64,000 nt of DNA, taken from SAR86 cluster bacterium SAR86E (GTDB lineage Bacteria > Pseudomonadota > Gammaproteobacteria > Magnimaribacterales > D2472). Positions 18,589 to 36,198 of the stretch are shown here, in pieces. The translations under genes were made by a program, and so were the position numbers. Location: the NCBI GenBank assembly GCA_000307935.1, contig AMWX01000012.1, forward strand, positions 124,001-188,000, read 5' to 3'. The notes below the pieces were generated by a model. That model made no database searches and was not told where the DNA came from. It was given only the letters and a program-made list of their open reading frames with translations. Positions within the stretch are counted from its first letter, which is position 1. Every line of letters starts with the position of its first letter.

Positions 18589-18601
18589 TTCTTATATGCA
18601 T

Positions 18602-19861: not shown

Positions 19862-19933
19862 AATAGAACCTCTAGAATAATATAAGACATGTGAGAATCT
19901 TGCCAGTCTACAAGCAATAAATAAAAAGTTTCA

Positions 19934-20779: not shown

Positions 20780-20858
20780 AAGATTCTCCTTTTTTTAATT
20801 CTCAATAACAGATATCAACTTTGCATATCTGATTAAAAATTTTTTTACCTTAAAAATT

Positions 20859-21671
20859 TTAACCTGAAGAAATTATTTTTTTTATTTGAATGTAGCCATC
20901 TGGCCAATATTTTTCAGGATTAATCGCATCCATAAGTTTTATAGAAGGCGTTCTGAGATAATATGTTTTTTCTTTCAGGCTTTTATCCAATAATTCCTTG
21001 GCTGTTAAATCCCGTGAACCATATTCAAATGAATGCGCAAAGTTCTGAACTTTTTTTAGCAATTCCGCATATGGAAGACACCATGAAAAATGGCAGCCTG
21101 AGACCTCATTAACCTTTTTACCTGCATAGCGCCAATGAGCATAACTGTTCTTAAATAAATATCTCCCAGCACCAATTATTGAAGGGCCATAAAAATGAAA
21201 ATCAGGAGCAATTAGCGAATCTGACAGCATAAACTGATTGAGTCTTAATGTTTCAGCTTTAAAGCAAATAAATCTTGAAGAAATTCTATCCAGAGATTTG
21301 CTTACTGATGATTGATACAAAACTTCATCTGAATCTGTAGAAATAACTATATCATTAATAGATAAATTAAAATGATCTATGAATGCGCCACGAGTTATGT
21401 TTTCATTAAAGTGGGAATGAGCGTCATTTCTACTTTTGGAAACACTATATGATTCTAAAAATAAAGGAATATAGTCTATTTTACTTGAGAGTTTAGGAAT
21501 CATAGATAATAGTTTATCAATACCAATTAATTTTCGCTCATATCCAGTGTGAGTAAACTGAGGCTCAATAATAATAACTCTATCTAGCAAACTATCTAAT
21601 TCTATGATCTGAGCAGCGATAAAGGGAATTTCGTGCTCTGAAGTAAAAATTGTTTTTAAAAATACATTCAT
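20859..21671 (-). CDS. GT17-like glycosyltransferase
   Basis: A 270-residue protein resembling family 17 glycosyltransferases (beta-1,4-N-acetylglucosaminyltransferase type). Supporting motifs are ELDSLLDRVIIIEPQFTHTG, the DIVISTDSDEVLY acidic motif (about 107-119), and the C-terminal GCHFSWCLPYAELLKKVQNF followed by a His-Ser-rich stretch, the pattern seen in GT17 proteins. It is unlike the neighbouring GT2 enzymes. Role in repeat-unit synthesis is inferred from the locus; the sugar is unknown. Confidence 0.6.
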   Translation of the reverse strand: MNVFLKTIFTSEHEIPFIAAQIIELDSLLDRVIIIEPQFTHTGYERKLIGIDKLLSMIPKLSSKIDYIPLFLESYSVSKSRNDAHSHFNENITRGAFIDHFNLSINDIVISTDSDEVLYQSSVSKSLDRISSRFICFKAETLRLNQFMLSDSLIAPDFHFYGPSIIGAGRYLFKNSYAHWRYAGKKVNEVSGCHFSWCLPYAELLKKVQNFAHSFEYGSRDLTAKELLDKSLKEKTYYLRTPSIKLMDAINPEKYWPDGYIQIKKIISSG

Positions 21672-21758
21672 TATAAATACTCAGAAAAATTCAGATTCAC
21701 AGATAAAATCTAGAAAAGAAGAGCTTACTTAAAAATCTTATAAGCTTCAAATATTAGC

Positions 21759-22448
21759 CTATAAAAGCTCAATAGCTGCATAATTTGTCTCTTCATTATT
21801 TAAGTTTTTAGCCCAGAATAAATTACCATTTTTACCTTCAATGGCAGCATATTTTTGTGGATATATAATTTTTTTTGATCCAAGAATTGCAGCTGCTAAA
21901 GAAAAGGTTGAGGGGCTGGCAATAATTTTTTTTGCTCTCATCAACATAATAAAATCAGAAAAAGGGTTGCCGCTTACAAGAAGAATCTTAAGACCCCTGC
22001 TAACAAGGGTCTCGACTATTGCTTGAACTATGCTGTGATGAGAGTCATCGGTTACTAAAAATATTGTGTCTGTATAGTCCGAAGGTATGCTGTCAATAAA
22101 AAAATCCTCTTTGATAATAGAATGCTTTTTCCATTGTGAAAAATCTGTTCCGCGAAAATGAAGAGCTATATAGTTTGCTGGTTTTTCAAACAACGATTCA
22201 GCGGTAATGAAATAAGAAGGAATATCGATTGGTTTTTCATGAAATAGAACTTCACTTAGCTGCCATTTTTGTTTTAGTTTAAAATCGAACTTTTTAGATG
22301 TATTTTTAAGAAAACGTCTGCAATCTATATCATTAGAAACGATGGTACCCTCTCGATCAGCAATATAATTAAGGGCATCTATATGTTGTAAAAATTTATT
22401 ACCAAACCGACCAGAAAGCCCATCAATTAAAAAAATTGGTTTTTGCAT
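21759..22448 (-). CDS. GT11-like (fucosyltransferase-type) glycosyltransferase
   Basis: A short 229-residue protein with GRFGNKFLQHIDAL near the N-terminus, YIALHFRGTDF in the middle and SPSTFSLAAAILG near the C-terminus. These correspond to the GxxGNxxFQ, HxRxxD and S-x-STF-S-x-x-A patterns of family 11 and related fucosyltransferases. GT11 proteins are usually about 280-300 residues, so this is a short member. GDP-fucose synthesis genes (gmd, fcl) lie in the same operon, which supports fucosyl transfer. Specificity is inference. Confidence 0.55.
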   Translation of the reverse strand: MQKPIFLIDGLSGRFGNKFLQHIDALNYIADREGTIVSNDIDCRRFLKNTSKKFDFKLKQKWQLSEVLFHEKPIDIPSYFITAESLFEKPANYIALHFRGTDFSQWKKHSIIKEDFFIDSIPSDYTDTIFLVTDDSHHSIVQAIVETLVSRGLKILLVSGNPFSDFIMLMRAKKIIASPSTFSLAAAILGSKKIIYPQKYAAIEGKNGNLFWAKNLNNEETNYAAIELL

Positions 22449-22525
22449 TTTGATGTATCTTATTAAAAATTAGTTTAATTTGAATTATTTTAACAAAATA
22501 TTTATTTGAGCAACTTATTTAGAAA

Positions 22526-24025
22526 TTAAATAAGTTTATTATTAGCCCGCAAAAGCCCGAATATCCAGATCCTTATCTGCGAATTAAAAAGAAGTAATAA
22601 ACCATACAAAGAAAAAGCTAGTAAGAGAAAAAATATTTGCCAAATAAAACCATTGTATGATTCAACAATATTTTGAAATGTTAAAAAGACGGATGTAACC
22701 AAAAATGCGCAGAATAAAGGAAATAAAAAGCAGCTTATAAGCTTTTTGAAATCTAGATTTAATCTTTGAAAGCTTATAAAAATAAATAATGGAAGTCGAA
22801 GACAAGCTGAGCCTGTTGCATAAGTAATTATCATAGGGATAATGCCGAACGAAAAACTCATAGCTATTAAAAAAGAAACTACTATAAAATCAATGATACG
22901 GAGCTTTAATACAATATCTGGCATACCTTTGGCTGTAAGTTGACATGCTAGTAAATAAATTACTGGCTCTACAATTGCTATAGGTGCAAGAAGTTTTATC
23001 AATGAACCCACTTCAGTCCAACCCTCTCCAAGAATAATGGTAGCAAGTAAATCAGAGAAAAGAATAAAAATCATGCAGGTCAATATAGCCATTATCGAAA
23101 TTGCTTGTAATGCTGATAAGGCAAGGCGATCAAATGAATCTTTTGAAGATTTGCCATGAAACCTACTAAGGCTAGACTGAGTAAGGTGCGAAATAGGTAT
23201 AAGGAACATGGCAGAAAAAATGCCCACAATCATAATAGCTCGCGAATATATTCCTGCACCATTAATACCATCAATTAATCCTACTACCAAAGCGACTAAC
23301 GAAACGGTCAATGTTGCCAAAATACTTGCAAATAATGAAATTCCGCCAAATTTTAGTAAATACAAGATGTTGGTTTTTCTAGAGTAAAATAAGGGTCGCC
23401 ACTTTGAAGCATAGGCAGCTAAAGTTAAATGGCCAGCAACCGGCAAAATTGATAAAGCCACTAAAGCCCAATAGCCAAAACCTGTTAATGCCATATAGCA
23501 AGCAATTATTATAGCAAATGTGACAGTCAGGATTTCAATTATCATTATAAGGGTATAGTCCAGGCGACGACGCAATAGCGCATCAAATTGAACTCCAAAA
23601 CCCCCAAAAATATAAGCAGTAGATAAAAAAATTAAAACTGAAGCCAGTTTAGGCTCTGAGTACATGAATGCCATAGAAGGAGAAATTAATACGCAGAAAA
23701 ACATTAAGGAAAAACCAATTGCAGCATTGATCCAAAATATATTTGAAGCTTCTTGAATGGAGATAGACTGGGTTTGAATAACTGCAGTGGACAAGCCACC
23801 ATCCTTTAGTCTGGCTAAAATAGCAGTCACAGAAGTGCAAATAGCTATAATACCAAAATCTTCTGCACTCAATATGCGAGCTAAGAAAGCTGTTGAAAAA
23901 ATAGTAGCTATAGCTTTGATTATTTGGCCAAAAATTATTATTTTACTAGATTGGACAAAATTTGTAGCAATCCCAGTATCAGTAAAGTCCACCTTAAAAG
24001 GATTTTTTTTTGAGGAATCAATCAT
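22526..24025 (-). CDS. Wzx/WzxC-type oligosaccharide flippase
   Basis: A 499-residue polytopic membrane protein of the MOP/polysaccharide-transport family, with about 14 hydrophobic segments. It opens with SSKIIIFGQIIKAIATIFS and has the family signature LSAEDFGIIAICTSVTAIL plus FGVQFDALLRRRLDY, typical of WzxC. It flips lipid-linked repeat units to the periplasm for polymerisation. I use the ATG at 24025; a TTG five codons upstream (24040) is an alternative, and neither has a strong ribosome binding site. It lies 27 bases downstream of the methyltransferase gene. Confidence 0.87.
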   Translation of the reverse strand: MIDSSKKNPFKVDFTDTGIATNFVQSSKIIIFGQIIKAIATIFSTAFLARILSAEDFGIIAICTSVTAILARLKDGGLSTAVIQTQSISIQEASNIFWINAAIGFSLMFFCVLISPSMAFMYSEPKLASVLIFLSTAYIFGGFGVQFDALLRRRLDYTLIMIIEILTVTFAIIIACYMALTGFGYWALVALSILPVAGHLTLAAYASKWRPLFYSRKTNILYLLKFGGISLFASILATLTVSLVALVVGLIDGINGAGIYSRAIMIVGIFSAMFLIPISHLTQSSLSRFHGKSSKDSFDRLALSALQAISIMAILTCMIFILFSDLLATIILGEGWTEVGSLIKLLAPIAIVEPVIYLLACQLTAKGMPDIVLKLRIIDFIVVSFLIAMSFSFGIIPMIITYATGSACLRLPLFIFISFQRLNLDFKKLISCFLFPLFCAFLVTSVFLTFQNIVESYNGFIWQIFFLLLAFSLYGLLLLFNSQIRIWIFGLLRANNKLI

Positions 24026-24052
24026 TGTAACTAGGGCCAAATGAAAGAATTA

Positions 24053-24730
24053 TTATTTAAATATTCCAAAGGTTTTTGCGTATCCTCTGTGGCTTCCATA
24101 TTCTTTGTAAGATAAATGATTTTCTAAACAAAAATCACATACTGCCTCATAAACCATCTTAGAATTAAAATCTCCATCAAGATTTTTAAGTTTATCATTT
24201 GAAGAGTGACGCATGTGAAAGTCATCACCGCATAAGACTCCACCAGGTTTTAATTTTGGCCAATAATTTCTTAAGTCGCTTAATACATAATCATAAGTAT
24301 GATTACCATCAATAAATATAAGATCAAGTGACTCCTCGGGTATCGATGCTAGAACTTCTAGATCATCAGAAAAAGAACGGTAAAATACAACATTCTCATT
24401 CATTTTTAATAGTTCTTTTCGGGTTTGATTATATACTTTATCTCCACCTGTATCTAATAAAATCCTATCAAAACCATCACCTATATAATCATCATACATT
24501 TCATAAGGGTCTACTATAATGTACTTTTCTACTCTGAAATTAGAAAGAACTATCTTGCTACTCTCACCAAAGCGTGCTCCTACTTCCAATACAGTTATGG
24601 CTCTTTTAGAGAATTTCTCTTTTAATTCAAGAATAATGGGTCTTATTGACCCACCTTTAGGACCCACAATTCCTAAAAAAAATCTTTCATAAAAATGCCA
24701 AAAAAGACTTTTAAATTTTGCTACAATCAT
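24053..24730 (-). CDS. Class I SAM-dependent methyltransferase
   Basis: A 225-residue methyltransferase of the Methyltransf_24 kind. Motif I is VLEVGARFGESSKIVLSNF (about 45-63), an acidic strand end IIVDPYEMYDD follows, and the DLIFIDGNHTYDYVLSDL motif with PGGVLCGDDFH completes the SAM fold. Such proteins in EPS loci methylate sugars. It is next to an FkbM-family methyltransferase, which suggests a methylated polysaccharide; the target is unknown. Confidence 0.75.
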   Translation of the reverse strand: MIVAKFKSLFWHFYERFFLGIVGPKGGSIRPIILELKEKFSKRAITVLEVGARFGESSKIVLSNFRVEKYIIVDPYEMYDDYIGDGFDRILLDTGGDKVYNQTRKELLKMNENVVFYRSFSDDLEVLASIPEESLDLIFIDGNHTYDYVLSDLRNYWPKLKPGGVLCGDDFHMRHSSNDKLKNLDGDFNSKMVYEAVCDFCLENHLSYKEYGSHRGYAKTFGIFK

Positions 24731-24914
24731 TTTGATTTTCCTAATATAATGTTTCCAATTTTTATGATCAATGGTCGTTTAGTTATATAAAATTTATATA
24801 TTTCATACTTTTCACGTCATATATTTTATAAAATAAATTCAATATTTAATAAGCATGCTAGTTTCTCAAGCTATAAGATGCTGAGTTAATCAAAAATTTG
24901 AAACTACCCTATAT

Positions 24915-25820
24915 TTACAATAGAAGTGATCTTTTTGAAATTTGGTCCGTAAATTCAAATTTTGAATTTTTACAGCATGCCACAATTAAGCCATCCTCAG
25001 AGAAAGTATCATTAAGGTCAATATCACAAATAATCCTATAGTCATGGTCTTTAATATTTTGTATGCAGTCATAATGCAACTCATTAGAATGAGTTGAAAT
25101 GAACAAGAATTCTGCTGAATGGTTGCTTAGGATATCCTTTGCGCCCTCTAACATGGCTAGCTCATATCCTTGGATATCACTATGAAGGATATCTATATTG
25201 GTTATTGCAAATTCCTCTTTTAAACCATCAACGCTTACTGTACGAGTACGAGAAGTCTTTTCATTTTCATGAATATCGCTTACAAATGCATTGATAAAGG
25301 TTCCTTCTTTATTATTTAATTTAAAATTTCTTTTTCCAGATTCAATATTAAAACTCTCTGGCTCAACCATAAAGACATTGGAATCTGTAAATTTTTGTTT
25401 AAACCAGAGTGAATAAAAAGCCCAAAAACTTCCAAGCTCTATCATTGTCGGTTTAGATTTATTATTACGATCTATGTACTCTAGAACAAGCTGAAAAAGA
25501 AGCTCCTCTTGAGGTTCATGTACACCATTATTTTCAGTTAATAGAACGGTTTTTTCTGGCCCATAATAACTGCCGACATTTACTTTAATTCCATTATGCA
25601 TAAGCTGCTTTCCATTCTTTATACTTCCTGCACCCGCACACCTCGGAATTTTAAAATTATCTGGAGAGGATAAGCATATATCAATCCTTTTACGCCAAAT
25701 ATCATCTACCTTCCAGTTTCTGAAAGTATTATCAAAAAATCCTGTAGAGGGAAGAGTATGGCCAACAAATCGTCTAATTAACGGATAATTTCGTATATAA
25801 CTGCGTATTTTTTTAAACAT
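24915..25820 (-). CDS. FkbM-family methyltransferase
   Basis: A 301-residue SAM-dependent methyltransferase. The SAM-binding region MIELGSFWAFYSLWFKQKF (about 112-130) and VFMVEPESFNIESGKRNF are followed by IDILHSDIQGYELAMLEGA, the DxQGxE pattern diagnostic of the FkbM family. These enzymes O-methylate sugars in many polysaccharide loci. It is separated from the neighbouring methyltransferase by 184 AT-rich bases in which I see no gene, and from the dehydratase upstream by a hairpin. Confidence 0.8.
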   Translation of the reverse strand: MFKKIRSYIRNYPLIRRFVGHTLPSTGFFDNTFRNWKVDDIWRKRIDICLSSPDNFKIPRCAGAGSIKNGKQLMHNGIKVNVGSYYGPEKTVLLTENNGVHEPQEELLFQLVLEYIDRNNKSKPTMIELGSFWAFYSLWFKQKFTDSNVFMVEPESFNIESGKRNFKLNNKEGTFINAFVSDIHENEKTSRTRTVSVDGLKEEFAITNIDILHSDIQGYELAMLEGAKDILSNHSAEFLFISTHSNELHYDCIQNIKDHDYRIICDIDLNDTFSEDGLIVACCKNSKFEFTDQISKRSLLL

Positions 25821-25910
25821 ATAATTTTTCCGGGATTAAAGATTAAGATAAAAAAAACAGAAACTCTAAAAGTATAAAAATTGAAATTATTTTTATCATT
25901 AATTTTTTTA

Positions 25911-25946
25911 AAAAATGCTAAACTTCTTCTGCGGTGCAAGAAGTTT
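25911..25946 (-). terminator. Hairpin between gmd paralogue and fkbM gene
   Basis: AACTTCTT (25921-25928) pairs with AAGAAGTT (25938-25945) around a GC-rich 9-base loop. On the minus strand the stem is followed after a few bases by seven T. It could end or attenuate transcription inside the long EPS operon, which would matter if RfaH-type antitermination operates. Confidence 0.45.
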
Positions 25947-25976
25947 TTTAAGTATATTTTTATTACATTTTTACTA

Positions 25977-26933
25977 TTAGTAAAGTTTATTTTCAATCAT
26001 CATGCGTACTATATCTTTAAGCTGATATTTTGGAGACCAGTTTAATACATTTTTTGCTTTTTCTGGAAGACCAAAATTAGACTGAATCTCACTAGGTCTT
26101 ATAAATTGATCTGATTGATGCACATACTTGCTCCACTCTAAACCGTAATAGTCAAAAACTAGTTTTACAAATTCCTCTAATGAATAGCTGATTCCAGATG
26201 CAATTACATAGTCACCTGGCGTATCATTCTGCAACATCAGCCACATGGCTTCGATATACTGAGGAGCCCAACCCCAGTCACGTTGAATAGATAAGTCGCC
26301 TAATACTAATTTTTTACTAGTGCCTTCAGCAATTTTTTTAGCTTCAAGGCAGATTTTTTTTGTAACAAAATGATCTCCCCTTAAATGTGACTCATGATTA
26401 AAAAGTATTCCAGAACTTACAAATAAATCATAGGCATCCCTATAATTTGAAGTATGAAAATACGCAGCAGCTTTAGCAACCCCATATGGACTTTTGGGAT
26501 TAAAGGGTGTGTTTTCATCAGCCCCATCTATGGCTGTATCCCCAAAACACTCTCCAGAACAAGCATTATAATATCTAACATTACTAAAATGATGACGAAG
26601 GCACTCTAAAATATTTAAATTTGGTTGGCAATGACTAATCATTGTGTCAATGGGGTTTTGATAGGATTTACTTACCGAACTCTGACCTCCAAGATTATAA
26701 ATTTCATTGGGTTTATATTGTCGTATTATTTTCTGAACATCTTTAGGGTCCAGCATAAATGAAGAAATCAACTCTACGTCTTTTTTAATGTTTAATGCAA
26801 TCAAATTACTGAAGCTATTTAGAGTAGCATCACGAGAGATGCCAATTACATTATAATCATTAGAGAGTAAATGATGAGCCATAAGTGAGCCGTCTTGGCC
26901 TGATATCCCATTAATAAGAGCAGTTTTAGCCAT
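25977..26933 (-). CDS. GDP-mannose 4,6-dehydratase paralogue (extended SDR)
   Basis: A 318-residue extended SDR, similar to GMD but shorter and divergent. It has the NAD loop NGISGQDGS, GGQSSVSKSYQNP, the dehydratase-type SGECFG (Ser and Glu kept) and SPYGVAKAAAYF (Tyr and Lys kept), then NHESHLRGDHFVTKKI and RDWGWAPQYIEAMW. The retained Glu suggests a 4,6-dehydratase rather than a simple reductase. It lacks the C-terminal KGNKAP-type insert present in the neighbouring gmd. It starts six bases after the gmd stop. It may make a second GDP-deoxysugar; the substrate is open. Confidence 0.75.
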   Translation of the reverse strand: MAKTALINGISGQDGSLMAHHLLSNDYNVIGISRDATLNSFSNLIALNIKKDVELISSFMLDPKDVQKIIRQYKPNEIYNLGGQSSVSKSYQNPIDTMISHCQPNLNILECLRHHFSNVRYYNACSGECFGDTAIDGADENTPFNPKSPYGVAKAAAYFHTSNYRDAYDLFVSSGILFNHESHLRGDHFVTKKICLEAKKIAEGTSKKLVLGDLSIQRDWGWAPQYIEAMWLMLQNDTPGDYVIASGISYSLEEFVKLVFDYYGLEWSKYVHQSDQFIRPSEIQSNFGLPEKAKNVLNWSPKYQLKDIVRMMIENKLY

Positions 26934-26939
26934 ATGTTT

Positions 26940-28067
26940 CTACTCTCGTGGTAATTTAACTTCAAATCCATGCTTGGATAATATTTTTTGACTCTCAGCA
27001 ATTTTATAGTCAGCTTCAACCATCTCTGCGCACATCTGCTGCACAGTTATCACTGGCTCCCAACCTAATATTTCCCTCGCTTTAGTAGGATCGCCCAATA
27101 ATGTTTCGACTTCCGAGGGTCTAAAGTATCCAGGATCAACTCTAACGATTATATCTCCAACAGATATTGCTGGTGCCTTGTTACCTTTTATTGATTCAAC
27201 AATTCCAACCTCTTCAATGCCTGAGTTGATAAACTTCAATGAAATGCCTAGTTCTTGAGCACTCCACTCAATAAATTGACGAACGCTGAATTGAACACCA
27301 GTTGCAATAACAAAATCCTCAGGTTTATCTTGTTGCAGCATCATCCACTGCATTCTTACATAATCTTTAGCATGCCCCCAATCTCTCAATGCATTTAAAT
27401 TACCTAAAAATAAGCATTTTTCCAAACCTAAAGCTATATTGGCAATGCCCCTTGTAATTTTACGAGTAACAAATGTTTCTCCACGACGAGGACTCTCGTG
27501 GTTAAATAAAATACCATTACAGGCATATATTCCATATGCTTCTCTATAATTTACTGTAATCCAATAAGCATAAAGCTTAGCAACTCCATATGGACTTCTC
27601 GGATAGAATTGAGTTGTTTCTTTCTGCGGGGTTTCTTGAACAAGACCATATAATTCTGATGTGGAAGCCTGATAAAAACGAGTTTTTTTCTCAAAGCCTA
27701 AAATACGAATCGCCTCTAAGATTCTTAATGTTCCCAATCCATCTACATCTGCAGTATATTCTGGACTATCAAAACTTACTGCAACATGACTTTGTGCTCC
27801 AAGATGATAAATTTCATGAGGTTGAACTTCTTGAATAATACGGATTATATTTGTTGAGTCAGTTAGATCGCCATAATGCAACTTCATTTTTAAGTTATCT
27901 GCATGCTGATCTTGATATATATGATCTATTCTTTGTGAGTTAAATAAACTTGCCCTTCTCTTAATGCCATGGACCATATAACCTTTTTCAATCAAGAGTT
28001 CGGCTAAATATGAGCCATCTTGTCCAGTGATTCCAGTTATTAAGGCAACTTTACGATTATTTTGCAT
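26940..28067 (-). CDS. gmd: GDP-mannose 4,6-dehydratase
   Basis: A 375-residue enzyme of normal GMD length. It converts GDP-mannose to GDP-4-keto-6-deoxymannose with NADP. Marks: [46 protein letters not shown], catalytic STSELYG and [12 protein letters not shown], then [16 protein letters not shown] and the C-terminal [22 protein letters not shown] lies eight bases before the ATG. The next gene upstream, fcl, uses its product, so the pair makes GDP-fucose. Confidence 0.96.
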
Positions 28068-28083
28068 CTCTTTGCTCCAGTTT

Positions 28084-29064
28084 CTACATTCTTAATGTGT
28101 TGATATTGCTTTGGAAATCGCTATAAGCATCTTCAAGGCCTTCCTCTAGGCTAATAGTTGCATCCCAATTTAAGTTTTTTAATCTGTTGCTATCCATAAG
28201 CTTTCTTGGAGTGCCATCTGGCTTGGTAATATCAAATTTAATATCTCCTTTAAAACCAACTACCTTACTAATTATTTTAGCCAAATTTTTTATTGAAATT
28301 TCATGCCCTGAACCTACATTTATATGACTTATCATTGGTGAAGTATTTGCAGTATACATATCAAAATCTAAATTCATAACATGTATGCATGCTGCAGCCA
28401 TATCATCAACATGAAGAAACTCTCTAAAGGGCTCCCCTGAACCCCAAACAATTACCTCGCTGAGGGCATTAACTTTTGCATCATGAAATTTCTTAATTAA
28501 AGCAGGCACTACATGACTGTTACTAGAGTGATAGTTATCACCAGGACCATATAAATTTGTTGGCATAACGCTCCTATAATCTATGCCATGGGATTCACCA
28601 TATTGACGATTGTAACTTTCACATAATTTTATTCCAGCTATCTTAGCAATTGCATATGGTTCATTCGTTGGTTCCAGAACTCCAGTTAATAAAGCTTCTT
28701 CTCTCATTGGTTGAGTGACTTGTTTTGGATAAATACAACTAGATCCTAAAAAAAGCAGCTTCTTAATACCTGCTTTCCAACACCCATGGATAATGTTTGC
28801 TTGAATGATAATATTTTCATAAATAAACTCTGCCGGGTAAGAGTTGTTTGCCAATATTCCACCAACCTTTGCAGCTGATAAGTATACTTGGTCTGGATGT
28901 TCTGACTTTAGAAAATCATGAACTTCCTGTTGATTTGTGAGATCTAGTTGATCGCGATGGCGAGTTACTATATTTGAAAACTCTTTTTGATGTAATGATC
29001 GAATCAATGCACTTCCAACCATGCCATTATGCCCAGCAACATAGATTTTTGGGGAATTATTCAT
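28084..29064 (-). CDS. fcl: GDP-L-fucose synthase
   Basis: A 326-residue epimerase/reductase (also called wcaG) that turns the GMD product into GDP-L-fucose with NADPH. It has [16 protein letters not shown], the [11 protein letters not shown] segment, SSCIYPK with the catalytic Ser, and [17 protein letters not shown] with Tyr and Lys, followed by [13 protein letters not shown], all typical of the family. It lies between manC and gmd, the normal GDP-fucose order in EPS operons. Confidence 0.96.
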
Positions 29065-29101
29065 TTTGTATGCCTAAAATAAATGTTCAACCTAATTTAT
29101 A

Positions 29102-30508
29102 TTAATCAGCAGATACCCTGCCATATACATCTTGAAGCCTTACAATATCATCCTCACCAAGATATGAACCTGTCTGAACCTCTATTAACTCAAGATCAAT
29201 TTTCTCAGGATTTTCTAAAGCATGCACTGAACCAACTGGGATATAGGTAGACTCATTAACTGACAATAAAAAAGTTTCTTCTTCAATCGTAACTTTTGCT
29301 GTGCCCACTACTACTATCCAATGTTCAGACCTATGATGATGCTTTTGCAAACTAAGTTTTGCTCCCGGCTTAACGGTGATTCTTTTAACTTGATACCCCT
29401 CACCGATATCTACTGAGTCATATTTGCCCCATGGTCGGAAAACCTCCCGATGAAGCTCATGTTCACTTCGCGATTCATCCTTTAACTTATCAGTAATTTT
29501 TTTTATATCTTGCACGTTATTCTTATGAGCAACCATAACTGCATCTTTTGTGGAAACTATAACCAAATCATTGATTCCAACTGCTGCAATTAATTTATCT
29601 TCCGACCTAATATAGCAACCATTAGTATCGTGACATATTATATCGCCATGATGAAAATTATCATTTTTATCCTTTTCACTTGCTTTCCACAACGATAACC
29701 AAGAGCCAATATCACTCCAACCTGCATTCATCGGAACCATAACACCATTATCAGTATTTTCCATTACAGCATAATCAATAGATTCACTTGGGCACGAACG
29801 GAATGCATTTTCATTGATACGAATAAAATCTAGATCTTCTTTATTATCGCTCATTGCATCTTTACATGCCTGATAAATATCCGGACGAAATTTATTCAAC
29901 TCAGAAAGTAAGGCACTGGCTTTAAATAAGAACATACCACTATTCCAGTAATAATCCTTTGATTTTAGAAAGTCCTCAGCAAGCCTTAGTGACGGTTTCT
30001 CAATGAAGCTGTTGATAGTATATCCAGAGCCCTCTGCTGAGCCTGTTTTAATGTAACCATAGCCTGTATGCGGCTCATTAGGAACAATACCAAATGTAAC
30101 TAATTTACCTGACTCAGCTAAATTAATTGCAGATTTAATTGCGTTTTGAAAGGCATAAATATCTTTAACTTCATGGTCTGCAGATAAAACTAATAGCAAT
30201 GGATCTTTTTCTAGAGATTGTAAAGCTGCAAGGGCTATGGCTGGTGCAGTATTTTTACCCTCTGGCTCTAAGATTATTGACCCATGCTGATCAATTGCCC
30301 TTAACTGTTCTGCAACAAAAAATCTATGGTCTTCATTGCAGATAAAAATAGGATCTTTAACAGTCAGTCCACTGAGACGCATTAAAGTGTTCTGAAGCAT
30401 TGTATATTCATTATTTAGTGCAAAAAATTGCTTTGGATGCTTTGATCTCGATAATGGCCATAGTCGAGTACCAGCACCACCAACTAAAATTACTGGGCAT
30501 ATAATCAT
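29102..30508 (-). CDS. manC: Mannose-1-phosphate guanylyltransferase / mannose-6-phosphate isomerase
   Basis: A 468-residue bifunctional type II enzyme that makes GDP-mannose. The N-terminal guanylyltransferase domain has the GTP pyrophosphorylase signature GGAGTRLWPLSR and FIEKPSL. The C-terminal cupin isomerase domain has RPWGKYDSV, the metal site QKHHHRSEHW and a final GEDDIVRLQDVYGR. GGGAG precedes the ATG. It supplies gmd. Phosphomannomutase (manB), which normally works with it, is not in this window. Confidence 0.95.
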   Translation of the reverse strand: MIICPVILVGGAGTRLWPLSRSKHPKQFFALNNEYTMLQNTLMRLSGLTVKDPIFICNEDHRFFVAEQLRAIDQHGSIILEPEGKNTAPAIALAALQSLEKDPLLLVLSADHEVKDIYAFQNAIKSAINLAESGKLVTFGIVPNEPHTGYGYIKTGSAEGSGYTINSFIEKPSLRLAEDFLKSKDYYWNSGMFLFKASALLSELNKFRPDIYQACKDAMSDNKEDLDFIRINENAFRSCPSESIDYAVMENTDNGVMVPMNAGWSDIGSWLSLWKASEKDKNDNFHHGDIICHDTNGCYIRSEDKLIAAVGINDLVIVSTKDAVMVAHKNNVQDIKKITDKLKDESRSEHELHREVFRPWGKYDSVDIGEGYQVKRITVKPGAKLSLQKHHHRSEHWIVVVGTAKVTIEEETFLLSVNESTYIPVGSVHALENPEKIDLELIEVQTGSYLGEDDIVRLQDVYGRVSAD

Positions 30509-30541
30509 TTCAATTCTCCCTATTATTTAAAAATATTCTAC

Positions 30542-31720
30542 TTAATTTTCCCCATACAAATCTCGGGAAAAACATTTTTCTGCAACATCAATCAAGCTTT
30601 CGGACATTCTGTTTGCAACGATTAGATCGCTATTTTTTTTAAAGCGAATTAAATCTGTTTCAATTTCCATACCAAGAAAACTAGACTCATTTAACTTTGG
30701 TTCATAAATAAGAACGCCTACGCCTTTCTCTTTAATTCGTTCTATAATTCCTAAAATAGCAGATGATCTAAAGTTATCACTACCAGCCTTTGCAACCAAC
30801 CTAAAAAATCCCACTACCTTAGGATTTTTTTTTACGATTTCCTCTGCAATAAAATTTTTTCTCACAGAGTTTGATGAGACAATGGCATCTATGAGAGTTT
30901 GGGGGACTTGATCATAGTTTGCTAGCAACTGTCTAGTATCTTTAGGAAGGCAATAGCCGCCATATCCAAAAGAGGGATTATTGTAGCCATCTCCTATTCT
31001 ATGATCTGAGCTAACACCAGAAATAATGCTCTGGGAATCAAGGTTTTTTGCAAGAGCATAAGAATCTAATTCATTAAAAAATGATACTCTCATGGCTAAA
31101 TATGTATTAGAAAAAAGTTTGATAGACTCAGCTTCAGCCGACTTGACGAACAATACTTTAATATTTTCTTTGTCTGCAGCATCAGCTAAAAGGCTCGCAA
31201 ATACTTTGCCTGCATGACAATTACTACCAACAATTATTCTTGATGGATGAAGGTTATCTTGCAATGCGCTACCTTCTCGGAGAAATTCTGGAGAAAAAAT
31301 AACACGCTTTGTTGAATGTTTTCTTTGAAGAAATTCTGTATGTCCCACAGGTACTGTTGACTTGATAACAACTGTAAGGTCTGAGTTAGCATTTAAAGCA
31401 GCTTTAACAACCGAATCTACATTTCTGGTATCAAATTTATTTGTATTAGGATCATAGTCTGTAGGAGTCGCCACGATAACAAAATTTGCATTTTGAAAGG
31501 CAATATTGGCATTATCAGTCGCATTAAGACTCAAATCTTTTGTTGCTAAAAATTTTTCAATATGAAGATCAGAAACAGTTGTCTTGCCTTCATTAATTTT
31601 ATTTACTCGATCTTTGTTCACATCGAGAATCATAACGTCATTGTGCTGAGCTAGCAGAGCTGAAAGTGACATTCCAACAAAACCAGCACCTACTATAGTT
31701 ATTTTTAATTTTGCAGACAA
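30542..31720 (-). CDS. ugd: UDP-glucose 6-dehydrogenase
   Basis: A 392-residue enzyme that oxidises UDP-glucose to UDP-glucuronate with two NAD. It has the dinucleotide loop VGAGFVGMSLSALL, STVPVGHTEFL, FSPEFLREGSAL, a lysine/Asn region FSNTYLAMRVSFFNEL and the catalytic GYGGYCLPKDTRQLL with the active Cys. Size matches E. coli Ugd (388). No ATG is available at the N-terminus; the frame opens with TTG at 31720. It predicts a uronic acid in the polymer, which would make it anionic. Confidence 0.93.
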   Translation of the reverse strand: MSAKLKITIVGAGFVGMSLSALLAQHNDVMILDVNKDRVNKINEGKTTVSDLHIEKFLATKDLSLNATDNANIAFQNANFVIVATPTDYDPNTNKFDTRNVDSVVKAALNANSDLTVVIKSTVPVGHTEFLQRKHSTKRVIFSPEFLREGSALQDNLHPSRIIVGSNCHAGKVFASLLADAADKENIKVLFVKSAEAESIKLFSNTYLAMRVSFFNELDSYALAKNLDSQSIISGVSSDHRIGDGYNNPSFGYGGYCLPKDTRQLLANYDQVPQTLIDAIVSSNSVRKNFIAEEIVKKNPKVVGFFRLVAKAGSDNFRSSAILGIIERIKEKGVGVLIYEPKLNESSFLGMEIETDLIRFKKNSDLIVANRMSESLIDVAEKCFSRDLYGEN

Positions 31721-31803
31721 AGTGATTAGATTGTATTAAATTAATTATTGATAAAATTGCAGCCTAGTAAAAATTTAGAAATAAAATTTTTGTTATTGGG
31801 AAA

Positions 31804-32748
31804 TCAAGTCAATTTATTTTTCTCTTGAAAAATATAGTTATTAGTGATCACTGTTATAATACCAAGCATAAGCCCAAATATAGTTCCTAAAATACATATA
31901 AAGGCTCTTCTTGGCTCCGATTTCTTTTCCATTACTGAAGGAGGATCAATATATTCAAATACATATGATTCATTCACTGCAATTAATGTTAATTTTTGAG
32001 TCTCTTTCTGCAAGAGTGTAGCGATTGCCTGTTTTATTTCGGTAAAGTTAGTTTTTATCATTTCTGAGTTGAGAAAAATAACTGCTTTTTCAGCTTCGTC
32101 TTTATCTTTTTTCCTGTAAAAAGCATTAATTTGATTGATAATTAGTTCAGCCCATTTATGGGCAATATAAGGAGATTGATGTTTGATTGAAAGCGAAATA
32201 AAACCTGTTTTCTTATCCTCATCAATGATGAAATGTTTTTTTTGAAAGACTTCATAGCTTTCCTGAGCACTTGGTATTAATTTTTGTGGATACGAAAAAT
32301 CCCTTACCCAAGAGTTATTTTTTTCATCATATAAGTCATCATCAATCACCAGCTTATTTAAATTTACATCCCATGATTTGACAGCCATTAGTTCATGTAG
32401 AGAAATACTCGGTAAAATATTGTTTTCAAAGAAACTTAAAGAAATAAGTTTTTCCAAGGCTCTTTTGGAGTTACTTCCAGAGTTTTGACTTGGCAATGAA
32501 ACTCCAGCAAGACTAGCTAACCCACTATAGCTTTCTAATGCGCTTGATACTCCTTCCTGGGGCTCTACTGGAACAAGTAAAGCTTTTGATTGATAAATAT
32601 TTGGTAAAGATAAACTATAAATAACCGCAAGCACCGCTGCAATTATAGTGAAAGAAATAATAATACGCTTACCGTGAGCTATAACTTGAAATAGTTGGTA
32701 AAAATCAAATTCGCCATCATAAGAATTATTGTAGTTAGTATCTTGCAT
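31804..32748 (-). CDS. wzz: Wzz-type chain-length determinant protein
   Basis: A 314-residue inner-membrane co-polymerase. The N-terminal Wzz domain has a membrane helix at about 29-50 (IIISFTIIAAVLAVIYSLS) and LPNIYQSKALLVP; a long periplasmic helical region follows, then the Pro-rich PPSVMEKKSEPRRA motif before a second membrane helix (about 283-305). There is no cytoplasmic tyrosine kinase domain and no separate wzc is seen. It sets polymer length. Its ribosome-binding region is replaced by the end of a 7-bp tandem repeat, leaving no Shine-Dalgarno. Confidence 0.9.
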   Translation of the reverse strand: MQDTNYNNSYDGEFDFYQLFQVIAHGKRIIISFTIIAAVLAVIYSLSLPNIYQSKALLVPVEPQEGVSSALESYSGLASLAGVSLPSQNSGSNSKRALEKLISLSFFENNILPSISLHELMAVKSWDVNLNKLVIDDDLYDEKNNSWVRDFSYPQKLIPSAQESYEVFQKKHFIIDEDKKTGFISLSIKHQSPYIAHKWAELIINQINAFYRKKDKDEAEKAVIFLNSEMIKTNFTEIKQAIATLLQKETQKLTLIAVNESYVFEYIDPPSVMEKKSEPRRAFICILGTIFGLMLGIITVITNNYIFQEKNKLT

Positions 32749-32754
32749 GTTTAT

Positions 32755-32785
32755 ATTTTTTATTTTTTATTTTTTATTTTTTATT
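32755..32785. repeat. 7-bp tandem repeat (ATTTTTT, four copies) between EPS regulator and wzz
   Basis: A occurs exactly every seven bases at 32755, 32762, 32769, 32776 and 32783, separated by T runs. The array contains the regulator's stop codon and ends six bases before the wzz ATG, so copy-number changes would alter the wzz translation start region. Confidence 0.85.
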
Positions 32786-33082
32786 CAAGTAAACGGATAA
32801 TTGATCAAATTCAACTTGTTTTTTTGCAATAAACTCTTTTGTTATAGCTGTTTTTTCCCTAATGCCCTTAGGAGTTATTATATACATATAGTTCAATTTC
32901 TTTTTAGAATTAGTAAAATTTTCTATTTTAATAAACCCAACATCAATCAAGGCTTTAAGACAATAATTCACCTTTCCTAAGCTTAAACCTGATTTAGTGG
33001 AAAGTTTTCTTTGAGATGTATGCGAGTCTTGCTGAATCAAATGCATCACTTCTAAAACATCTTCAGTTATTTTTTTATTCAT
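32774..33082 (-). CDS. EPS-associated MarR-family transcriptional regulator
   Basis: A 102-residue single winged-helix protein. The helix-turn-helix lies at about residues 20-45 (QRKLSTKSGLSLGKVNYCL), followed by a wing (KIENFTNSKKKLNYMYIIT) and a C-terminal helix. It resembles the short MarR-type regulators that head exopolysaccharide operons in many Proteobacteria. It is the first gene after the ops-like leader and precedes wzz by 25 bases. A perfect palindrome near its promoter could be its own operator; that is inference. Confidence 0.8.
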   Translation of the reverse strand: MNKKITEDVLEVMHLIQQDSHTSQRKLSTKSGLSLGKVNYCLKALIDVGFIKIENFTNSKKKLNYMYIITPKGIREKTAITKEFIAKKQVEFDQLSVYLNKK

Positions 33083-33134
33083 AGATTAAGGGGTAAATTT
33101 TTTAGAAGATCAAACAAATGCAATAGACATAATA

Positions 33135-33142
33135 GCTACCGC
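33135..33142 (-). promoter_or_regulatory. ops-like element (RfaH recruitment site)
   Basis: The minus strand reads TGCGGTAGCTAT here. The GCGGTAGC core equals the central part of the E. coli ops element (GGCGGTAGnnT), with the first G and the distal T differing or shifted. It lies in the transcribed leader, 53 bases before the first EPS gene and in the correct orientation, with the rfaH gene directly upstream. The pairing of site and factor makes chance unlikely, but binding is not shown. Confidence 0.7.
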
Positions 33143-33175
33143 ACGGCATAAATAAATTTTATTTTTTAATATACC

Positions 33176-33190
33176 GTTCAACTATTGAAC
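33176..33190. promoter_or_regulatory. Perfect 15-bp palindrome in the EPS operon leader
   Basis: GTTCAA-CTA-TTGAAC. It lies just downstream of a possible -10 box and would cover the transcription start of the EPS operon, a normal place for a repressor. The adjacent MarR-type regulator is the obvious candidate ligand. Confidence 0.5.
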
Positions 33191-33195
33191 ACTAT

Positions 33196-33201
33196 ATCAT
33201 A
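33196..33201 (-). promoter_or_regulatory. Possible -10 box of the EPS operon
   Basis: TATGAT on the minus strand, about 115 bases before the first EPS gene. No convincing -35 is found at 16-18 bases, so the promoter may need an activator or lie elsewhere. Confidence 0.3.
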
Positions 33202-33281
33202 TTGTAGTCCACAGAACATAAATTTTATTTTTTTGTTCAGAGGGTCCGTTGAAAGGAACAATTGATAGCTCTAGGCCAAGC

Positions 33282-33791
33282 TTAACTATCTAATAAGGAT
33301 ATCATAGGCTTGATAGGAGAAATATCTTTCTGATTCACCCAAATAGTTTGAGCAGAGTTTAGAATTGCTAACAAAATTTTCTGAGCACTTCTTTTATCAA
33401 TAATATCTATTACCCTAGCTCGTTGACCAGACAGCAGTTTTAATCGAATAATTACCTGATCATCTTTTTTAAAAATAGGTGTTAAGTTACTCTCTAGTGA
33501 AATCACATCAAGTTGATTTTGAATATTAATAATAGTGTCATCCGGAAGCTGTGGAATTTGATTATTTACACGTAATACTCTGGAAATTCCTTTGGTAGAA
33601 TTAATTGCAGACAGTTTTTCCAAATTATTGACCATAACAAATGCATAACCAGAGAAAAGATCTTTAACATACCTATTGCCATTATTTTGATAATAAATTC
33701 TAGGAAAGAAGGTTTTGTGACCTTGAAAAGCAAGATTTTCTTCGGCTTTTTTAGACTGATTAGGTTTAACAACTACGATAATCCAAGCCAT
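33282..33791 (-). CDS. rfaH: RfaH-type transcription antitermination protein (NusG paralogue)
   Basis: A 169-residue protein close in size to E. coli RfaH (162). The NGN domain occupies about 1-95: MAWIIVVVKPNQSKKAEENL, FFPRIYY, a basic GNRYVKDLFSGYAFVMV, and INSTKGISRVLRVNNQIP, matching RfaH landmarks (INATRGVSHFVRFG). A linker and a small C-terminal domain (KDDQVIIRLKLLSGQRARVIDI) follow. I use the ATG at 33791; the longer frame would run into tRNA-Cys. RfaH joins RNA polymerase at ops sites and suppresses pausing and Rho termination in long surface-polysaccharide operons. Here it sits next to such an operon with an ops-like site between. Confidence 0.88.
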   Translation of the reverse strand: MAWIIVVVKPNQSKKAEENLAFQGHKTFFPRIYYQNNGNRYVKDLFSGYAFVMVNNLEKLSAINSTKGISRVLRVNNQIPQLPDDTIINIQNQLDVISLESNLTPIFKKDDQVIIRLKLLSGQRARVIDIIDKRSAQKILLAILNSAQTIWVNQKDISPIKPMISLLDS

Positions 33792-33806
33792 AAAAATTGA
33801 TTCCAT

Positions 33807-33880
33807 TGGAGGCTGAAGCCGGAATCGAACCGGCGTAAACGGCTTTGCAGGCCGCTGCATAACCACTCTGCCATCCAGCC
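33807..33880 (-). tRNA. tRNA-Cys (anticodon GCA)
   Basis: Minus-strand cloverleaf with acceptor GGCTGGA..., anticodon loop CTGCAAA (GCA), T arm CGGTTCGATTCCGG and an encoded CCA (33807-33809), 74 nt. It begins directly after the pgsA stop, recalling the E. coli uvrC-pgsA-glyW-cysT-leuZ order, and its CCA abuts the rfaH leader. Confidence 0.94.
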
Positions 33881-34417
33881 TTATTTCCTAAATGAAGCTA
33901 TTGTATATGAAAGTCCTGTTTGCAGAGTAATTATTAACGCTAAAAATAAAAAGAGATTTGAAATAAAAAGTAATAAAGCAGAGTTACTATAGAGTCCTGA
34001 TAAATAAAAGGTAAATGTAAAAAATTGAATTGTGGTCTTTGCCTTGCTCAATAATGAGACTTTAGTAGCCTCATTATTGTTATTTCTTGCATTAAAGTTT
34101 CTCAAAGCGCCTACCCAAAACTCTCTAACAAGAATAAGTCCTCCAATCAAACCTATGTAAATACTGGATAATTCAAGGCTCAATGCCAAAATTAAAAATG
34201 TTACTAATATTTTATCAGCAATTGGATCCAAAATTGCGCCCATTGTTGATTCAAGTTGATATTTTCGTGCAAGTAAACCATCCCAGTAATCAGAAATACT
34301 AGCCAAAATAAATAGAGATAATGCCCAGCCATAAAGATCGAATTGAGTAATTAATATAAAGATTACTGGAGCAATAAAAATTCTAAAATATGTAAGAAAT
34401 TGAATAAATAAATTCAT
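33881..34417 (-). CDS. pgsA: CDP-diacylglycerol-glycerol-3-phosphate 3-phosphatidyltransferase
   Basis: A 178-residue integral membrane enzyme making phosphatidylglycerolphosphate, the first step to phosphatidylglycerol and cardiolipin. The CDP-alcohol phosphatidyltransferase signature D-x2-DG-x2-AR-x8-G-x3-D-x3-D is seen in SDYWDGLLARKYQLES then MGAILDPIADKIL. About four membrane helices are visible. It overlaps uvrC by four bases (ATGA), the usual gammaproteobacterial uvrC-pgsA pair. Confidence 0.94.
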   Translation of the reverse strand: MNLFIQFLTYFRIFIAPVIFILITQFDLYGWALSLFILASISDYWDGLLARKYQLESTMGAILDPIADKILVTFLILALSLELSSIYIGLIGGLILVREFWVGALRNFNARNNNNEATKVSLLSKAKTTIQFFTFTFYLSGLYSNSALLLFISNLFLFLALIITLQTGLSYTIASFRK

Positions 34418-36198
34418 GATGTGTAAAATAAATTAATCTCTTTTGCTAGTTTAATACTAATTCCTGAAACCTTACACAAATCTTCTATAGAGGCCCTCTT
34501 AATTGATTTAATAGATTTGAAATAATTCATTAGACTCTTCTTTTTTTGTGGTCCGACACCACAAATATCATCAAGCGACGATTTTTTTATAGTTTTATTT
34601 TCTTTCCTTCTATTGCTAGTGATTGCAAACCTATGAGACTCATCTCGGATTTGCTGAAGAAGCAAAAATCCAGGACTATCTTTAGGCATTTCAATAACTC
34701 CATCCTTAGAAAGAATAGTTTCTGTAGATCTAACTCTTTTAGATCCCTTGACAATACTGATTACCATTGGTAATTTTTTGTCTAAATTAGAAAAAGCGCT
34801 TAAAGCGACCTCCAGCTGAAGTTTACCGCCATCAATTAAAATAATATCTGGTAATGGGTTGATACTTTTTTTATTAATTCTTCTTTCAAGAACATGCCTC
34901 ATTGAACCTATATCATTTCCAGAAAATTCGTCAGGAATATTAAAAAGCCTATAATTATTTTTTTCTGGTCCATGAGATGAAAACCTCACAGCGGAGGCCA
35001 CAGCATTCTTGCCGCCATGATGACTGGTATCAAAACCTTCTATTGTTATGTTCTTTCTTTTTAAACCTAAATATAAAATCAGGTCCTTAATTGCAAATGA
35101 ATATTTATCCGCCTGATTAATCCTATTCTCAATAACTTGATTAGCATTTAATTTGCCTAACTTAGCCACTTTTCTAATATTTGAATTAATGTTTGCGGAA
35201 ATTGAGATTTGTTTTCCAAATTTAAGCTTTACTGCTTGTTTTATTAGAGACAAATTACAGGGCTTAATATTTAAGATAATTTTCTTAGGCAAAGAAAAGC
35301 TATTTTGGTAATAAGAAAATATTAAACTTTGAAACAGGCTATCAGCATCATGTAATTGATTGCCTTTTAAATAATGAGTCTTGGTACCTCTGATTTTTCC
35401 ATTTCTTACCGATAATATGCATATTCCCGTCCTATTAAGCTTAGAAACACATGCAAAAAAATCAACACTAATCAAAGCACTATTAAATGATTGCTCTTGC
35501 TGAAGTAAATCTAAACTTTGAATCCTTTTTTTGATCTCTTGTGCTCTTTCATACTCTTGCTTGTCAGCAAGCATGTGCATCTGAGCGGTCATTAATGATT
35601 TAGTTTTTTTTCCAGAAGATGATAAGTAGTGTTGAGAAGATACAATGTCTCCTTGATAGCTAACCTCAGAGATTAAATTAACGCATGGAGCAGAACATCT
35701 TTGCATTTGATGCTCAATACATGGTCTAGACCTATTATTAAATGTTGTATCGCTACAATTTCTAATCAGATAAATCTTCTGCAAGTCTTTAATAGTTGCC
35801 TTTACAGCTTGTGCGCTTATAAAAGGGCCAAAAAAGTTTTTAGAAACAGCCTGTTTTGACCTTCTCATGCTAATGCTTGGGTATTTATGATCCATAGAAA
35901 AATGTACATATGGATATGTCTTATCATCCCGCAAAAGAATATTAAATCGAGGTAAATTTTCTTTAATTAAAGACTGTTCTAAAAGTAATGCTTCAGCCTC
36001 AGTAATTGTTGAAAAAGTTTCTATGTGATCTGTCAGAATTTTAATTTGTTGTGTTTTTCTATCCTTGAAAGATTTACCAAAATATGAAGATACTCTTTTT
36101 CTTAAATCCTTTGCTTTACCAATATATATAATTTTATTTTTAGAAAAAAATTTGTATATTCCAGGAGTATTGGGAACTTGTTTTAAATCCAATGCCAT
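34414..36198 (-). CDS. uvrC: Excinuclease ABC subunit C
   Basis: A 594-residue nuclease of nucleotide excision repair making the 3' and 5' cuts next to a lesion. Domains: N-terminal GIY-YIG nuclease (PGIYKFFSKNKIIYIGKAKD, about 12-31), a Cys-rich segment with CIEHQMQRCSAPCV, a UvrB-interacting helix pair (about 200-225), an RNase H-like endonuclease domain with EGFDTSHHGG and DIILIDGGKLQL, and C-terminal helix-hairpin-helix repeats. It overlaps pgi by one base (TAATG). Confidence 0.95.
   Translation of the reverse strand: MALDLKQVPNTPGIYKFFSKNKIIYIGKAKDLRKRVSSYFGKSFKDRKTQQIKILTDHIETFSTITEAEALLLEQSLIKENLPRFNILLRDDKTYPYVHFSMDHKYPSISMRRSKQAVSKNFFGPFISAQAVKATIKDLQKIYLIRNCSDTTFNNRSRPCIEHQMQRCSAPCVNLISEVSYQGDIVSSQHYLSSSGKKTKSLMTAQMHMLADKQEYERAQEIKKRIQSLDLLQQEQSFNSALISVDFFACVSKLNRTGICILSVRNGKIRGTKTHYLKGNQLHDADSLFQSLIFSYYQNSFSLPKKIILNIKPCNLSLIKQAVKLKFGKQISISANINSNIRKVAKLGKLNANQVIENRINQADKYSFAIKDLILYLGLKRKNITIEGFDTSHHGGKNAVASAVRFSSHGPEKNNYRLFNIPDEFSGNDIGSMRHVLERRINKKSINPLPDIILIDGGKLQLEVALSAFSNLDKKLPMVISIVKGSKRVRSTETILSKDGVIEMPKDSPGFLLLQQIRDESHRFAITSNRRKENKTIKKSSLDDICGVGPQKKKSLMNYFKSIKSIKRASIEDLCKVSGISIKLAKEINLFYTS

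Follow-up and report, generated by a model that had tools for sequence, protein, structure and literature searches.

The window analysed here, a stretch of 64,000 nucleotides from a contig of SAR86 cluster bacterium SAR86E, carries on its minus strand the gene order uvrC, pgsA, tRNA-Cys, a NusG-family gene, a 199-nt leader, a MarR_EPS gene, wzz and 20 more open reading frames (ORFs). A first, sequence-only reading of this DNA had placed the core of an ops element between an RfaH-type gene and an EPS operon, and the core GCGGTAGC does lie there, in the order and orientation described. The features are the following.

33807 to 33880, minus strand: tRNA-Cys, directly 5' of rfaH and downstream of uvrC-pgsA
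33282 to 33791, minus strand: NusG paralogue closest to RfaH, 169 aa (TIGR01955, 56.5 bits; PF02357, 41.5 bits)
33191 to 33199, minus strand: extended -10-like element TGATATAGT, abutting the palindrome; read by eye, putative promoter
33176 to 33190, minus strand: palindrome GTTCAATAGTTGAAC, candidate MarR_EPS operator, the sole exact copy of the motif in the window
33132 to 33143, minus strand: ops-like element TGCGGTAGCTAT, with the core GCGGTAGC at 33135 to 33142
32774 to 33082, minus strand: MarR_EPS regulator, operon gene 1 (TIGR04176, 113.7 bits, cut-off 88)
31804 to 32748, minus strand: Wzz-type chain-length protein, operon gene 2 (PF02706, 3e-11)
9539 to 31720, minus strand: remaining presumed EPS operon, 20 ORFs of at least 100 aa, some with profile matches, others named by eye

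The start codon of rfaH lies 15 nt past tRNA-Cys, and the ATG of marR_EPS 52 nt downstream of the ops core. The EPS operon that the sequence-only reading expected behind the site is present, with a regulator and not an EPS enzyme as its first gene, and the score of this regulator above the curated cut-off places it in the MarR_EPS family. Most of the 20 downstream ORFs resemble polysaccharide genes by eye and some by profile (a sugar dehydrogenase at 30542 to 31720, an acetyltransferase, an export protein and YjbH/YjbF-like genes), and the EPS genes, with intergenic gaps of -13 to 348 nt, presumably form one transcript. The same reading held that internal hairpins and long gaps in the operon would need antitermination. 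The gaps are there, but terminator-like hairpins do not exceed chance in the two stretches scanned, which flank 29301 to 32599 (in 9400 to 29300, 9.3 are expected and 8 were found over the two strands, including 5 on that of the operon; in 32600 to 34500, 1.0 is expected and none was found), and internal terminators were therefore discarded as the reason for antitermination. The 3' end of the operon (9539 to 12263) holds YjbH (PF06082, 582 bits) and a YjbF/GfcB-like lipoprotein gene just below cut-off, a pair that resembles group 4 capsule export genes.

The NusG paralogue finds its best NCBIfam match in the RfaH profile TIGR01955, and its 56.5 bits fall short of the equivalog cut-off of 144.5, so that the label RfaH-type stands for nearest relationship and not for assignment at that cut-off. 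Two PF02357 genes occur in the genome, one with 99.8 bits on C6 (the normal NusG) and the rfaH-like gene here with 42.4 bits. Residues W4, K10, Q24, F51, Y54, F56 and G74 of E. coli RfaH are kept in all 33 RfaH-like rows aligned, and K10, F56 and G74, which the SAR86 paralogue thus shares with E. coli RfaH, are absent from the genome's own NusG; at position 56, in the RNA-polymerase-binding patch, F is present in 33 of 33 RfaH-like rows and L in the NusG. According to the available part of PMC5995543, the side chains of RfaH that contact ops are K10, H20, R23 and R73. Unlike E. coli RfaH, the window protein carries N at 20, F at 23 and K at 73, with K10 kept. E48 and R138, considered in connection with the autoinhibited C-terminal domain, are replaced by K and A, respectively. 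RfaH-like proteins of the SAR86 order have N at position 20 and N or K, where the window protein has F, at position 23. Nine RfaHs that have a canonical ops near marR were compared; 5 of them likewise have N20, and 8 keep R23.

A further difference from E. coli RfaH lies in the C-terminal domain, which AlphaFold2 modelled as beta strands and not as an alpha-hairpin, both in the window protein and in the protein of SAR86 AG-422-O05 (mean pLDDT 85.7 and 87.4, respectively, with uncertain stretches in the window model). The input for the window protein was a shallow alignment of 24 sequences, a depth at which the alpha state can go unseen, and E. coli RfaH was not modelled alongside as a control; we therefore treat the beta model as a hint, rather than a result, that may point to a factor that is not autoinhibited. 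A fold search with the window model returned as top matches a model of NusG and the structure 8phk, which shows RfaH in its fully recruited state at ops (TM 0.50 by query), with TM-scores by query of 0.41 to 0.58 over the first ten rows, and a sequence search of the PDB with the protein gave no match at 0.001. The protein is only 23-30% identical to 13 aligned counterparts from the SAR86 order, compared with 38-65% for MarR_EPS and its 13 aligned counterparts. The RfaH tree is poorly resolved (19 of 44 inner branches open) and places the window protein and that of G022 as long branches outside a supported SAR86 clade of 15 rows, from which a swap of the factor with retention of the site appears possible. 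In 17 of 19 loci of the order, a tRNA gene ends 6-26 nt before the start of rfaH; in the other two (G022, G528) rfaH comes straight after pgsA or overlaps it. This placement suggests constitutive expression. Two genomes (L266, 239-423; L114, 704-900) have the tRNA-Leu/tRNA-Cys pair not before rfaH but after marR_EPS, within the presumed EPS transcript.

Taken as a bare octamer, the core is unremarkable in number. It occurs once in the window, where 0.14 copies are expected (at least one copy in 13 of 100 shuffled windows), and five times in the genome against 13 copies of the reversed control. The expectation that the element should rise above chance across the genome thus failed for the octamer; it is in placement that the leader copy stands apart, as the only intergenic one, the other four lying inside mechanical ORFs. 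For E. coli MG1655, by comparison, a review counts 16 ops sites (PMC7819879). The suggestion that the pair acts in cis goes further than the sequence, in which a diffusible factor encoded next door looks the same as one acting in trans; what the locus shows is that a single factor, a single intergenic site and a single operon are linked. The ops hairpin and the loop core, positions 2-9, are present, with T1 and T10A11T12 in place of the G1 and G10T11G12 of E. coli ops; GGCGGTAGCGT has no occurrence in this genome. PMC5995543 describes RfaH as reading G5 and T6 of the hairpin loop, and the TG at positions 11-12 as inducing the pause. By these roles, the SAR86 site retains the bases for recognition and lacks those for pausing.

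The ops-like site is real and conserved. Within the genus, MarR_EPS scores above cut-off in 2 of 26 genomes and an RfaH-like match is found in the same two; the second of them, G022, has an RfaH only 28% identical to that of the window, yet carries the exact core 51 nt before marR, compared with 52 nt in the window. In the family, MarR_EPS exceeds its cut-off in 13 of 107 genomes, 12 of which have an adjoining RfaH-like gene, and all 12 rfaH-marR leaders contain the core, 11 of them in the context CCGTGCGGTAGCTAT. The prediction set beforehand, that the core should be conserved in relatives that keep the linkage of rfaH to EPS genes, was thus borne out. The thirteenth genome, G443, has a 5'-truncated marR, and the 1.5 kb before it contain no rfaH, no site and no palindrome. 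All seven further loci of the order that were examined and have a strong RfaH match contain the core downstream of rfaH, with the copy in G526 (f183) about 1.2 kb after rfaH. Around pgsA, no core was found within about 3.5 kb in 16 genus relatives that lack rfaH (a seventeenth, L270, sits at a contig edge and is outside this count); these relatives carry other genes there, many of them polysaccharide genes by eye. The region after pgsA (33807 to 34417 in the window; loci L253-L269) thus appears as a variable surface-polysaccharide locus of the SAR86 genus, with other nucleotide-sugar, Wzz or glycosyltransferase genes, by eye, and no rfaH in many relatives.

Eighteen order leaders were aligned on the core, namely those of the 12 family rfaH-marR loci, of G555 and of five of the six f183 loci (all but G526). 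T1, all eight core columns and T12 are invariant and positions 10 and 11 agree in 17 of 18, so that the conserved unit is the 12-mer TGCGGTAGCTAT and not just the octamer first noticed. Information content drops to 0.18 bits right after position 12, against a background mean of 0.44, and the block ends exactly where E. coli ops ends; just ahead of T1 conservation is partial, with 0.87 to 1.50 bits at -4 to -2. The chance of the octamer is about 2e-4 per leader, and it is present in 18 of 18. The exact 12-mer occurs 27 times in 24 of the 107 family genomes, compared with 9 occurrences of the reversed control; G022 is without it. Sixteen of these matches are inside ORFs and the other 11 all lie in rfaH-marR leaders, which rules out additional intergenic copies of the exact 12-mer as trans targets in the family.

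Beyond the order, the site tracks the factor. Among 369 genomes sampled from the class, MarR_EPS matched at 1e-15 in 77 and above cut-off in 43; the 44 loci compared are 42 of these 43 (the window's own left out), G022 and the sub-threshold G350. RfaH was counted as present at a TIGR01955 match of at least 77.9 bits (22 genomes) and as absent where at most one match was found and all were below 64 bits, as expected of NusG (22 genomes). Absence here means that there is no second TIGR01955 match, and a paralogue as diverged as that of the window, which at 56.1 bits in the class search would fail the limit for presence, might escape; G000 is not part of the counts. Of the 22 genomes with RfaH, 19 have a sense-strand core no more than 1.5 kb from marR_EPS, compared with one of the 22 without (p=3.9e-8), or 17 of 20 compared with one of 22 when the two SAR86 rows are removed (p=9e-8); no association of this kind is seen for antisense copies in that span (2 of 22 and 4 of 22, p=0.66). 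In 15 of the 22 RfaH-bearing genomes rfaH is within 10 kb of marR_EPS; in the remaining seven it is far away on the same contig (G157, G131) or on another contig (G209, G244, G344, G236, G227). The core lies after marR, behind rfaH, in G329, G264, G163 and G276, and in G227 it also lies after marR, with rfaH on another contig. Three RfaH-bearing genomes depart from the rule: G360 has a linked RfaH and no sense-strand core near marR, G344 has a core with one mismatch, GCGGTATC, in the expected place 48 nt before the marR match (L085, 10273-10280), and in G126 the contig ends 17 nt past the rfaH match. The opposite exception, G219 (L072), has a near-canonical ops, GGCGGTAGCGTA, 194 nt before the marR_EPS match, and RfaH was not detected there.

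A second set, consisting of the best 80 of 445 named MarR_EPS loci, the nearest of them mostly from SAR86 cluster bacteria, overlaps the class set in SAR86 and gives the same picture. The core is found in 26 of 29 loci with a linked RfaH-like match compared with 7 of 51 with no such match within the flanks, the span to which this search was confined (p=1.4e-11); with SAR86 and the SAR86-like L149 removed, the counts are 13 of 16 and 7 of 50 (p=1.4e-6). Since genomes and loci are related, all p-values given here overstate independence. The three linked-match loci without the core belong to Pelagibacteraceae and have NusG-like matches of only 28-35 bits. In these (L182, L187, L207) a weak NusG-like ORF lies 271-795 nt after the start of the marR_EPS match, without GCGGTAGC; it may be a further linked NusG paralogue, one recruited at a different site. 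Loci with both core and RfaH extend to Marivita (Alphaproteobacteria), Comamonadaceae and a MAG titled Nitrospirae. Two further MAGs, titled Bacteroidetes/Flavobacteriales (L149, L154), carry an rfaH-ops-marR arrangement of SAR86 type with an RfaH inside the SAR86 clade, and their contigs are probably mis-binned.

The leader holds a second conserved element. The palindrome GTTCA-N5-TGAAC is present with at most one mismatch in 17 of the 18 order leaders, and the G022 leader has two copies of a GTACA-N4-TGAAC form instead. Two palindromes 33 bp apart occur in four of the five f183 leaders, with three in G528, and two palindromes 21-24 bp apart were also seen in 11 of 16 Pelagibacteraceae loci. 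When one mismatch is allowed, 69 of 79 named loci have the motif upstream of MarR_EPS, compared with 0.57 expected; the eightieth locus has too little upstream DNA. The exact motif has a spacer of 5 in 64 of the 79 and of 4 in four, and none was found with any other spacer from 1 to 11 or in the downstream control stretch. Class loci contain the palindrome in 40 of 44 cases, compared with 0.42 expected and none for the reversed motif; it is present in 22 of 22 loci without RfaH and in 18 of 22 with it, and of the four loci that miss it all but G022 have a copy at a greater distance upstream. Taken together with the counts of the core, this means that the palindrome goes with MarR_EPS, and the ops core with RfaH. 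Across the 12 SAR86-family genomes there are 16 exact palindromes, of which 10 belong to these leaders; the six elsewhere look like background, as the reversed control is found 8 times. We therefore regard the palindrome as a candidate MarR_EPS operator.

A promoter of the operon between rfaH and marR_EPS may be read from the same leaders, eight of which (of 18) have a TATAAT/TACAAT-like hexamer ending 0-3 nt before the palindrome and a TTGNNT -35. The promoter scan of the window leader preferred another, weak site and did not rank TGATATAGT best, and a sigma-70 scan of 32600 to 34500 gave 7 sites compared with 10.0 expected and none in the leader. By the test used, a Shine-Dalgarno-like sequence precedes marR in none of the 18 order starts, or strictly 17 or 18 of 18 lack one, since the final 3 nt are outside the test and G528 has AGGA there. 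Among chosen ATG ORFs such a sequence precedes 8 of 24 outside the operon and 4 of 16 inside (p=0.007 for the 18 starts compared with those outside), a weak contrast that involves predicted starts and related leaders, with TTG- and GTG-start ORFs left out. As weak evidence, this would fit RfaH-aided translation. In f183 the ops-like element abuts or overlaps the predicted start codon of marR_EPS (L115, 2125-2137; also L116, L117 and L119), with no space for a Shine-Dalgarno sequence in between.

Gene order, conservation, co-occurrence and spacing are observed directly, and together they support the RfaH-ops interpretation first offered for this locus. We consider it quite probable that the SAR86 EPS operon is governed by a linked RfaH-ops control unit with two locks, MarR_EPS acting on initiation and RfaH on elongation. 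Points that speak against this reading are the score below the RfaH cut-off, the replacement of H20, R23 and R73, the changed bases at positions 11 and 12, the octamer count in the genome and the exceptional loci described above. On this reading rfaH, at the end of the housekeeping unit uvrC-pgsA-tRNA-Cys, is probably made constitutively, and the operon would start from its own promoter between rfaH and marR_EPS. As the first lock, MarR_EPS would bind the palindrome, which would overlap the transcription start, and repress its own operon until some signal frees it; this repression is suggested by the conservation of the motif. As the second lock, RNA polymerase would transcribe TGCGGTAGCTAT about 40-50 nt beyond the palindrome, where the non-template strand may fold the small ops hairpin and RfaH may bind and stay on RNA polymerase. 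Once bound, RfaH would keep NusG/Rho off and help the ribosome to load on a message without a Shine-Dalgarno sequence, and the 23-kb operon could be read to its end. The steps assigned to RfaH are taken over by analogy from E. coli RfaH, and promoter, repression, pausing, RfaH binding, antitermination and ribosome loading are all inferred.

The most serious alternative is that the RfaH-like protein is a constitutively active, non-fold-switching linked paralogue that loads without ops, with GCGGTAGC being a relic or a mere pause site. The beta C-terminal domain in both AlphaFold2 models and the loss of the ops-contacting H20 and R23 in the window protein speak for it, and the 2026 preprint PMC13015549, in the part available, treats monomorphic RfaHs near operons as ops-independent and as missing a few ops-binding residues. 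We nevertheless find it unlikely, because a relic would be expected to decay, yet 18 leaders keep the 12-mer with almost no variation despite the divergence of the window RfaH from the 13 other factors; in addition, the depth of the alignment behind the window model and the lack of a folded E. coli control weaken the structural argument. The two-lock unit can also be joined to part of this alternative. Tentatively, and with more doubt than confidence, we suggest that linked RfaHs that do not switch fold would still need ops, that the RfaH of SAR86 and relatives is always active, encoded at a tRNA gene and directed to one target by a single ops-like site that has kept its recognition core but lost the canonical pause bases, and that this site, placed behind a near-universal MarR_EPS operator, forms with it a portable two-lock header of EPS operons in several phyla. 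If so, linkage would have come together with DNA recognition and would not have replaced it.

It is very improbable that GCGGTAGC is instead an operator half or another site of MarR_EPS, or of a different DNA-binding protein, independent of RfaH: the site does lie in the MarR_EPS leader in SAR86, but it is missing beside MarR_EPS in 21 of the 22 genomes without detected RfaH, lies after marR in the five genomes named above, and leaves it to the palindrome to follow MarR_EPS. A chance octamer in an AT-rich leader, which the octamer counts in the genome and in shuffled windows would allow, is practically excluded by the alignment of relatives and the co-occurrence with RfaH.

Likeness and difference to known systems can now be weighed. 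In SAR86 as in the E. coli RfaH-ops system (GGCGGTAGCGTG), a long polysaccharide operon carries the core in its leader, in sense orientation; unlike in E. coli, where rfaH is beside tatD and ubiD, the SAR86 rfaH adjoins its target. JUMPstart contains ops. It is likewise a leader element of polysaccharide operons (PMC2864571, available part), but its RNA model, RF01707, has no match in the window leader at E up to 10 and none in 20 related loci at the gathering score. Genes for RfaH that adjoin envelope operons have been published, as clusters CL2-CL8 of Wang et al. 2020, of which CL4 is associated with an HTH regulator (PMC7593976), and as monomorphic RfaHs (PMC13015549); the parts of these papers available describe the same placement beside envelope polysaccharide genes and give no recruitment site, whereas here an ops-like site accompanies the factor. 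Like UpxY of Bacteroides and LoaP of Bacillus, the SAR86 protein is a NusG paralogue encoded with its own polysaccharide or metabolite operon, and it scores 28.9 and 27.5 bits against the profiles of these two, compared with 56.5 for RfaH. We know of no ops for UpxY or LoaP. The association of CL4 with an HTH regulator is possibly the MarR_EPS pairing described here. A literature search pairing SAR86 with RfaH found nothing, and among the literature matches listed no operator is described for the MarR_EPS family. Within the reach of this search, linked rfaH as a kind is therefore known, and the ops variant, a site that tracks the factor in linked RfaHs and the MarR_EPS operator appear to be new.

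With a conserved site that tracks the factor next to dozens of linked and highly diverged RfaHs, it becomes directly testable which ops bases and RfaH residues are truly required and whether linked RfaHs depend on ops. The palindrome, in addition, provides a predicted operator for the MarR_EPS family, seen from Pelagibacteraceae to the MAG titled Nitrospirae, and allows EPS operons to be examined for each of the two control steps. In the ocean, SAR86 is abundant and for the most part uncultivated, and the control of its surface sugars may bear on interactions with phages and grazers.
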